DNA of 64,000 nucleotides, taken from Hanstruepera neustonica. Its GTDB lineage: Bacteria > Bacteroidota > Bacteroidia > Flavobacteriales > Flavobacteriaceae. The DNA lies in assembly GCF_002895005.1 (NCBI RefSeq), contig NZ_POWF01000001.1, positions 784,344 to 848,343 on the forward strand. Reading direction: 5' to 3'. The position numbers were made by a program, and so were the translations under genes. Below are positions 47,042 through 48,110 of this stretch, piece after piece. The notes under the pieces are model-generated. The model saw only the letters and a program-made list of their open reading frames with translations. It was not told where the DNA came from and did no database searches. Positions within the stretch are counted from its first letter, which is position 1. Each line of letters begins with the position of its first letter.

Positions 47042-47494
47042 ATGAGTTTACAGGATGATGTTATGACTGCCATGAAAGAGGCAATGAAAACTAAAAATCA
47101 AACAGCTTTAACAGCATTACGAGCAATTAAATCTGCAATTTTGTTAGCAAAAACAGAAACGGGAGCACAAACAGATTTAACCGAAGAACAAGAGCTTAAA
47201 ATATTACAAAAGCAGGTTAAACAGCGTAAGGATAGTGCTGCCATTTTTATTGAACAAGGTAGAGAAGATTTAGCTGCACCGGAATTGGCTGAAGCTGAAG
47301 TAATAAGTCAGTTTTTACCGGAAGCATTGTCTGAAGAGGAGATAGAAGGTGTTGTGGTAGCTACAATTGATAGTATAGGTGCTGAAGGGATGAAAGATAT
47401 GGGTAGAGTGATGGGTATTGTCAGCAAAGAGCTGGCAGGTCAAGCCGATGGAAAAACCATTTCAAATATTGTTAAAGCCAAACTTTCACAATAA
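47042..47494 (+). CDS. GatB/YqeY domain protein
   Basis: A 150-residue helical protein of the YqeY family. The first half has ALTALRAIKSAILLAKTE, the middle QVKQRKDSAAIFIEQGREDLA, and the end DMGRVMGIVSKELAGQADGKTIS. The domain is shared with the tail of GatB, part of the tRNA-dependent amidotransferase, and suggests tRNA binding, but the free-standing protein has no settled role. It follows ftsZ after its terminator, as I recall it doing in related genomes, and lies just upstream of the broken tRNA-Arg copy. Confidence 0.92.
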   Translation: MSLQDDVMTAMKEAMKTKNQTALTALRAIKSAILLAKTETGAQTDLTEEQELKILQKQVKQRKDSAAIFIEQGREDLAAPELAEAEVISQFLPEALSEEEIEGVVVATIDSIGAEGMKDMGRVMGIVSKELAGQADGKTISNIVKAKLSQ

Positions 47495-47501
47495 TAAAAT
47501 A

Positions 47502-47559
47502 GGCTGCGTAGTTCAACTGGATACCTGCCTGCCGGCAGGCAGGGAATATCAGATTTCGG
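47502..47559 (+). pseudogene. Broken 5' half of tRNA-Arg(UCG) with palindrome insertion
   Basis: The bases 47502-47523 and 47544-47559 together match the first 38 nt of the intact tRNA-Arg at 47816 with one difference (C for T in the D loop). The match starts at the mature 5' end (plus one flanking A) and stops at anticodon-loop position 37, after TTTCGG. There is no 3' half, so no tRNA can form. A 20-bp palindrome splits the remnant between D loop and D stem. Confidence 0.93.
47524..47543. repeat. Perfect 20-bp palindrome inserted in the tRNA remnant
   Basis: Half-site CCTGCCTGCC followed directly by its reverse complement, GC-rich (16 of 20) in an AT-rich genome. The intact tRNA copy lacks it, so it is an insertion. 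Elements of this sequence, whose translation gives peptides like PACRQAG or CLPAGR, recur in Bacteroidota genomes as far as I recall. No other copy was noticed in this window. Confidence 0.85.
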
Positions 47560-47853
47560 TTTATGGACAAGTATTTTAAATACGTATTGAGTAGTGAAGT
47601 TGATGGTAGATTGTACAAAGGGCATACAGATAATTTGGATAACCGAATAATAGAACATAATGTAGGAAAAACTAAATCCACTAAAGGTTACTTGCCATGG
47701 GAGCTGGTTTATTTCGAAACGTTTGAAACTAGAGAAGAATCTATAGAAAGAGAGAAATATTTTAAAACAGGTGTTGGTCGGCAATTCCTAAAACAAAAAT
47801 TAAAAATAAAGTGAAGGCTGCGTAGTTCAATTGGATAGAATATCAGATTTCGG
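47560..47853 (+). mobile_element. Candidate minimal GIY-YIG element inserted in tRNA-Arg
   Basis: A 294-bp unit made of a 256-bp segment almost filled by the GIY-YIG gene (47560-47815) plus a fresh copy of the tRNA 5' half (47816-47853). Insertion at anticodon-loop position 37 would have left the old 5' half stranded at 47502-47559 and rebuilt a complete tRNA downstream. The arrangement is seen directly; mobility is inferred. It has no transposase, no terminal inverted repeats and no visible intron structure. Confidence 0.6.
47563..47814 (+). CDS. Small GIY-YIG nuclease
   Basis: An 83-residue single-domain GIY-YIG protein. The GIY position reads YVL (residues 7-9) and the YIG position YKG (18-20). 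Arg28 in DNLDNRIIEHN is in the place of the catalytic arginine, and Glu64 in ESIEREKYFK is in the place of the metal-binding glutamate. KSTKGYLPWELVYFE near 38-52 is typical of the UPF0213/YhbQ-like group. It has no DNA-binding tail, unlike classical homing endonucleases. The start codon lies 4 nt after the broken tRNA half and the stop is 1 nt before the intact tRNA-Arg, so transcripts may span all three. It probably cuts or nicks DNA at tRNA genes; this is inference. Confidence 0.9.
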   Translation: MDKYFKYVLSSEVDGRLYKGHTDNLDNRIIEHNVGKTKSTKGYLPWELVYFETFETREESIEREKYFKTGVGRQFLKQKLKIK

Positions 47854-47889
47854 CTCTGAGGGTTGGGGGTTCGAATCCCTCCGCGGTCA
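47816..47889 (+). tRNA. tRNA-Arg (anticodon TCG)
   Basis: A 74-nt cloverleaf. The acceptor is GGCTGCG with CGCGGTC (two G-T pairs), the D arm GTTC/GAAT, the anticodon arm TCAGA-TTTCGGC-TCTGA giving TCG, and the T arm GGGGG-TTCGAAT-CCCTC (one G-T). CCA is not encoded. It follows the GIY-YIG stop codon by 1 nt, so it has no separate upstream promoter space other than the 3' end of that gene. A terminator lies 18 bp downstream. Confidence 0.94.
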
Positions 47890-47906
47890 CTAATAATTGT
47901 CAAAAT

Positions 47907-47939
47907 AAAAAATGCCAAGTTTACTTGAGCATTTTTTTT
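47907..47939 (+). terminator. Terminator after tRNA-Arg
   Basis: AAAAATGCCAAG (47908-47919) pairs with CTTGAGCATTTTT (from 47924) with one bulged A, followed by T's. The stretch from here to the next start at 48111 holds AT-rich sequence with only a near-consensus TATATTTC about 65 bp before that gene. Confidence 0.75.
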
Positions 47940-48110
47940 GTTTAGACAATATCCAAAAAGGGATGTCTTTTGGAAAATATATATTCAAAACACACTATTT
48001 TGATTTCATTTAAACTGTGTGGTAAACATTTCGGATAAATTCGTATATTTCATTCCCTCTTTTTTATTATTCCCTCATAATTTTAATAGCCACAGCAACG
48101 TTACTAGTTT

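Follow-up and report, generated by a model that had tools for sequence, protein, structure and literature searches.

The window analyzed here, a 64,000-nt stretch of Hanstruepera neustonica DNA, contains a small GIY-YIG nuclease gene lodged between two copies of a tRNA-Arg(UCG) gene. On the + strand, yqeY (47042–47494; Pfam YqeY), the conserved upstream neighbor that frames the insertion site, is followed by a dead tRNA-Arg 5′ stub (47502–47559), the nuclease ORF (47563–47814, 83 aa) and an intact tRNA-Arg(UCG) (47816–47890 as called by ARAGORN; 47816–47889 by Rfam RF00005, 62.4 bits, E 3.6e-13). The ORF stops 1 nt before the start of the intact tRNA. The stub consists of tRNA positions 1–22 (47502–47523, + strand), a perfect 20-bp palindrome CCTGCCTGCCGGCAGGCAGG at the 3′ border of the dead copy's D-loop (47524–47543, no strand), and tRNA positions 23–38 (47544–47559, + strand, compared with 47838–47853). 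Its 38 tRNA nt therefore cover 58 bases, because the palindrome is inserted after position 22. Over the first 22 positions the stub differs from the intact copy only at position 16, which is C in the stub and T in the intact gene. An earlier note on this DNA had described a broken 38-nt half, a GIY-YIG gene and an intact tRNA; this order is correct, but the half is itself interrupted by the palindrome, which had been missed. The same note was right that there is no intron and that the tRNA is whole at the DNA level, since an Rfam scan of 47400–48000 returned no intron family and the intact tRNA was called. Single-strand folding of the stub is unremarkable (z −1.8). On the minus strand, spurious ORFs at 47440–47784 and 47472–47681 translate the palindrome as CLPAGR / CRQAG, and this motif probably contaminates many annotations.

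The protein encoded by the ORF is a member of the GIY-YIG nuclease superfamily and comprises the catalytic domain only, as assessed by Pfam, alignment, structural model and fold. Its sole Pfam match is PF01541 (50.6 bits, E 2.5e-13). Across 45 aligned relatives Tyr7, Tyr18, Gly20, Arg28 and Glu64 are invariant, and we take the two tyrosines, the Arg and the Glu to fill the catalytic roles assigned to such residues. The predicted structure (pLDDT 93.8) has the Slx1/I-TevI/UPF0213 fold. In searches of mobile DNA, tblastn of phages at E ≤ 1e-3 gave six weak records, listed as Listeria and Staphylococcus phages, and a plasmid search gave seven weak matches. There was no T-even phage among these phage matches, and close kinship to the T-even nuclease SegB was thus not found. 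Elsewhere in the same genome, at C9 (L003:980–1740), another GIY-YIG gene lies directly after the tmRNA gene, with no visible tmRNA remnant.

The association with tRNA genes is not peculiar to this locus. Scanning contigs with five nucleases gave a first sample consisting of the best 79 of 392 loci, in which a tRNA lies within 400 nt of the nuclease gene in 74/79 cases, compared with 2/509 control positions taken from these loci ≥1 kb away from the nuclease gene. Because the scan favored near relatives, this figure speaks for the clade and not for every GIY-YIG gene. Among the remaining five, L077 and L078 terminate within the start of a tRNA, hairpin-bearing tRNA copies are present in L063 and L082, and L129 shows no tRNA. 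Flanking direct repeats (E ≤ 1e-3) are present in 50 of 76 loci from these best 79 of 392 and in 2 of 252 controls. For a second sample, a profile of 45 nucleases was run against 148 genomes of the phylum (E ≤ 1e-15), 54 of which were matched, and 50 loci were inspected (30 supplied by the search and 20 hand-picked from the list). A tRNA or tmRNA lies within 400 nt in 44 of them and is absent in six; removal of our own locus and of a double-counted one (L252 is L265) leaves 42/48, one of these being a tmRNA. The targets include Arg, Leu, Ser, Ala, Cys, Val, Met, Asn, Asp, Pro, Gly and Thr genes. Two suggestions of the earlier note, that such elements are widespread in Bacteroidota and that the half-tRNA layout recurs at other tRNAs, are borne out by both samples. 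The possibility that any small GIY-YIG gene is linked to tRNAs was not supported: 2 of 30 general PF01541 loci of the class are near a tRNA (three of the 30 are long and UvrC-like, and strand assignment by the script may be wrong for several). Of the 26 general loci that could be scored, 16 nevertheless had direct repeats on their flanks at E ≤ 1e-3.

These data bear on the simplest alternative, an old tandem tRNA duplication in which the broken copy drifted beside an ordinary small GIY-YIG gene. A duplicate tRNA sequence is indeed present, and these genomes often carry small GIY-YIG genes belonging to other clades. A chance neighborhood is nevertheless very improbable given the contrast between 74/79 and 2/509, the same break point in most loci, the many different tRNAs concerned, and the empty sites, mirror form and protein-gene version described below. 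According to the earlier note, partial tRNAs without a GIY-YIG gene would have spoken for such a duplication. They do occur (L082, L152 and L153), but they adjoin or stand apart from ORF-bearing copies, so the link between tRNA and nuclease gene is not overturned. L082 has units lacking the ORF. In L152 and L153, a dead remnant of tRNA-Thr contains the palindrome; tRNA genes lie nearby, and neither locus has a GIY-YIG gene.

Two layouts account for most loci. A stub upstream with the intact tRNA after the ORF, as in the window, is seen in 59 of the best 79 of 392 loci. In 46 of the resulting 60 upstream-stub loci (59 and the window), a script detected a GC-rich insert after tRNA position 21 or 22. 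When the other 14 were inspected by eye, 11 had a hairpin there or elsewhere, in two (L090 and L128) it was partly visible and one (L105) had none. The length of tRNA similarity past the hairpin varies among stubs. The D-loop is the likely junction of the upstream-stub form, and the anticodon-loop insertion proposed in the earlier note is not supported, given this variable length and the insert lying at position 21/22 in most loci. In some loci the T-loop or anticodon arm is used instead. In a mirror form (15 of the best 79 of 392 loci), the intact tRNA comes first and the dead copy lies downstream. By eye, this dead 3′ copy has a hairpin in 10/15 loci, usually one that separates GGTTC from GA in the T-loop. 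In L072, L087, L122 and others, the ORF stop lies inside the intact tRNA by 9 to 50 nt (offsets −9, −22 and −50), so that complete mRNA and mature tRNA may be mutually exclusive products. In the second sample, a hairpin is present in the dead copy in 13 of 14 printed loci; it is usually a GC-rich hairpin different from the palindrome of the window, which a CCTGCC-type pattern recognizes in 15/50 loci. A loose script found an interrupted remnant in 43/43 second-sample loci, with 6 hits in the reversed control as well and a few cases (L239, L266 and L272 among them) that are near-uninterrupted tRNA copies; by this script, hairpin arms of at least 5 bp occur in 26/43 loci compared with 8 expected from shuffles. 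In another genome (G004, L010:1326–1900), a GIY-YIG gene beside tRNA-Pro is accompanied by several tRNA-Pro-derived copies in which a hairpin replaces the anticodon arm.

Comparison of the yqeY site between species reveals both empty and occupied states. In all four other genomes of the genus (L139–L142), yqeY is followed by a short gap and a tRNA-Arg, with no GIY-YIG match. At the family level we retrieved 30 of 41 yqeY loci and found a tRNA-Arg in 29, our own included; 25 of these 29 have no room for a gene between yqeY and tRNA-Arg. The four occupied sites are our own (L030), L032, L033 and L052, all with stub, hairpin and ORF, and L052 has two units in tandem. The single intact tRNA-Arg that the earlier note expected in relatives lacking the insertion is thus found in 4/4 genus and 25/29 family loci. 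The site varies in presence and absence as that of a free-standing homing endonuclease gene should, the comparison being between species, with one genome per species and several hosts represented by metagenome bins. Within the genus, L139–L142 carry two quite different tRNA-Arg(UCG) alleles at this site, which suggests, from the sequences, that whole tRNAs may be replaced.

Units also occur in arrays. At least two same-strand nuclease matches within 2.5 kb are found in 15, and at least two near-full copies in 10, of the best 79 of 392 loci, the latter count including L129, which lacks a tRNA, and L092, which may be one broken copy. L133 has three units of 317 bp with 98% identity, and L081 has three of 310 bp with 97–98% identity. 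The longest series, L264 (G198:C34:6000–11000), has eight nuclease ORFs ∼360 bp apart; between them lie hairpins and remnants that look tRNA-Met-like by eye, with no intact tRNA in the 5-kb stretch. Arrays are what a target-regenerating insertion predicts, and recombination between direct repeats would also yield them. Their content bears on a further alternative, that a phage or island of the integrase type once used the tRNA as its attachment site and left this locus as a scar. tRNA genes are common attachment sites of integrative elements, and two of five relatives in viral contigs adjoin a tRNA. An origin of this kind is nonetheless highly unlikely, because the unit is ∼300 bp, no integrase gene is present inside the window unit or the tandem units of relatives (the latter hold the nuclease gene alone), and the duplicated part of the tRNA is the 5′ one in one mirror form and the 3′ one in the other.

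Nuclease clades follow their targets. On a nuclease tree of 88 rows, in which many forks are unresolved, the target tRNA changes 19 times compared with at least 32 in 200 shuffles, indicating that clades keep to a tRNA. The side of the stub follows the tree weakly (12 changes, with 4/200 shuffles as low). In 39/46 loci the local tRNA matches the stub at least as well as that of any other host. Seven loci depart from this, among them that of the window, where the stub has the more common base at position 16.

Which of the two gene ends is the newcomer is hard to read from tRNAs. The first 21–22 nt of stub and intact copy are identical in 33/41 upstream-stub loci and so point to neither as the newcomer. 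When we compared acceptor pairing in the eight differing loci, the stub never paired better with the 3′ strand of the host (8/8), and their sequence differences read as decay of the stub or homogenization. This comparison lent no support to the replacement 5′ half of the tRNA that the earlier note had proposed. A sister clade found at protein-coding genes is suggestive. In five loci (L009, L174, L176, L177 and L179), the elements sit at glycine-loop codons of epimerase/dehydratase-like genes, in the order stub ending in GG-TT, then AACCC, ORF, and gene with its own start codon. As at the tRNA loci, the unit bears a duplicate of one target-gene end, with its counterpart left stranded. The L174 stub encodes MYHTNDLSGLNFLVTGGAGF, a peptide similar to that of the uninterrupted G003 gene (MYHSTDLSRLNFLVTGGGGF), and the working gene begins MIEQELHNYSFLVTGGAGF; by hand count, 14 of the last 18 residues match G003 for the stub and nine for the working end. 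At the DNA level the contrast is slight (29 and 26 of 42 nt, respectively). At the peptide level, this one case suggests that the stub may be native and that the working gene may have acquired another 5′ end. G004 has a 3′ end remnant of such an ORF directly before its epimerase gene, and in L009 both gene ends are alike, as after a second insertion.

The palindrome itself is the sole match in the window with up to three mismatches (100 shuffles gave none), and it has a single exact copy in the 3.05-Mb genome. Two further palindromes, with two mismatches, sit in repeats beside a second GIY-YIG gene at C15; this gene (L005:700–2100) is flanked by long CATTGCGAGG...GCAATGACG-type repeats. Exact copies are present in 17/100 family genomes, up to 18 per genome. 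We rejected the palindrome as an exclusive mark of the elements, because its copies lie mostly away from GIY-YIG genes. An REP-like system, in which the nuclease chiefly spreads GC-rich hairpins, with tRNA genes serving just as landing places for autonomous copies, has to be weighed against these data. Stubs nearly always have a hairpin, the sequence of which varies between hosts and recurs elsewhere in the same genomes, and the two imperfect palindromes above adjoin a GIY-YIG gene. Palindrome and nuclease profile occur together in 11 of the 100 family genomes (palindrome in 17, nuclease in 23; P 5e-5), or in eight (P 0.0012) after removing three genomes whose only palindrome is at the locus. 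On the other hand, a GIY-YIG gene is present within 2 of 16 single 3-kb palindrome loci from other genomes, 6/17 palindrome genomes have no nuclease profile match at the threshold used, and the hairpin sequence is inconstant within the clade, all of which make such a system rather unlikely. The likeness to REPs and RAYTs lies in small hairpins that accompany a nuclease gene and are scattered through the genome as well. RAYTs are HUH transposases thought to spread REPs, whereas the element here has a GIY-YIG domain and resides in tRNA genes; no HUH (Y1) transposase was found by Pfam search of the encoded protein. A related reading, which we consider less likely than not, is that a stem-loop-reading, Slx1-like GIY-YIG domain inserts REP-like hairpins along with its own gene at the edges of tRNA-gene loops. 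This would be a new transposition system in which stem-loops would be recognized as DNA, the target would be rebuilt each time, arrays would grow, and hairpins would seed dispersed repeats across Bacteroidota.

We favor a different mechanism, and consider it probable that the locus represents an intronless, self-restoring, minimal GIY-YIG mobile element aimed at conserved tRNA loops, its cutting and movement being inferred. In brief, the nuclease would (i) cut a tRNA gene at a conserved loop, i.e. the D-loop at 21/22 in the window or, in the mirror form, the T-loop at GGTTC^GA, and (ii) recombination repair would copy in a unit ending in the same gene segment, so that (iii) each insertion would restore a working tRNA and strand a hairpin-marked stub. 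Since this would leave a target in place, further units could be added in tandem. The intact tRNA retains the presumed target, and self-cutting must therefore be limited somehow; published enzymes of the free-standing GIY-YIG type are reported to cleave their donor allele inefficiently (PMC13096335).

The closest parallels are found in phages and fungal mitochondria. SegB of T-even phages is a GIY-YIG nuclease that cleaves within tRNA genes and gives rise to tandemly amplified tRNA-Tyr plus segB, and homologs near tRNAs are reported in phages, those of Bacteroidota included (PMC13096335). In T4, its gene lies between tRNA-Arg and tRNA-Ile (PMC2988022). Like SegB, the window element is free-standing, tRNA-linked and without an intron, and the reported SegB motif RAWTSGAAC is, as we read it, the reverse complement of the T-loop sequence GTTCSAWTY, the site used by the mirror form. 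SegB differs in being phage-borne and larger, and the SegB text available to us describes neither a hairpin-marked stub nor a restored tRNA. In fungal mitochondria, mobile ORFs replace the ends of Allomyces atp6 and Glomus atp6, atp9, cox2 and nad3 (PMC3630166). There too an endonuclease ORF with a copy of a gene end enters an essential gene, which stays whole while its native end is stranded. These ORFs differ in their mitochondrial location, in replacing the C-terminal end and in being mostly LAGLIDADG, and the accessible portion of that report mentions neither a tRNA target nor a terminal hairpin. Mobile introns and inteins differ in that no splicing element surrounds the window nuclease. 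To our knowledge, UPF0213/YhbQ-type GIY-YIG proteins and Slx1 are not known as tRNA-linked mobile elements, and we found no description of hairpin-marked tRNA stubs in bacterial chromosomes in the open-licence literature. It appears to be a type of minimal mobile element that had not been described before.

If the self-restoring mechanism holds, essential tRNA genes would host selfish DNA with neither intron nor intein, because the insert rebuilds its target, and the element would be a chromosomal counterpart of phage SegB. It would explain the partial, hairpin-interrupted tRNA genes of many Bacteroidota and offer a source for orphan palindromic repeats. Nucleases of ∼80 residues would then appear to tell tRNA genes apart, with clades following tRNA identity, and the mechanism would bear on the movement between species of pieces of tRNA genes and of gene 5′ ends. 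In L129 and L171, GIY-YIG genes seem to split one further gene, presumably four-helix-bundle-like, which is a possible third target.
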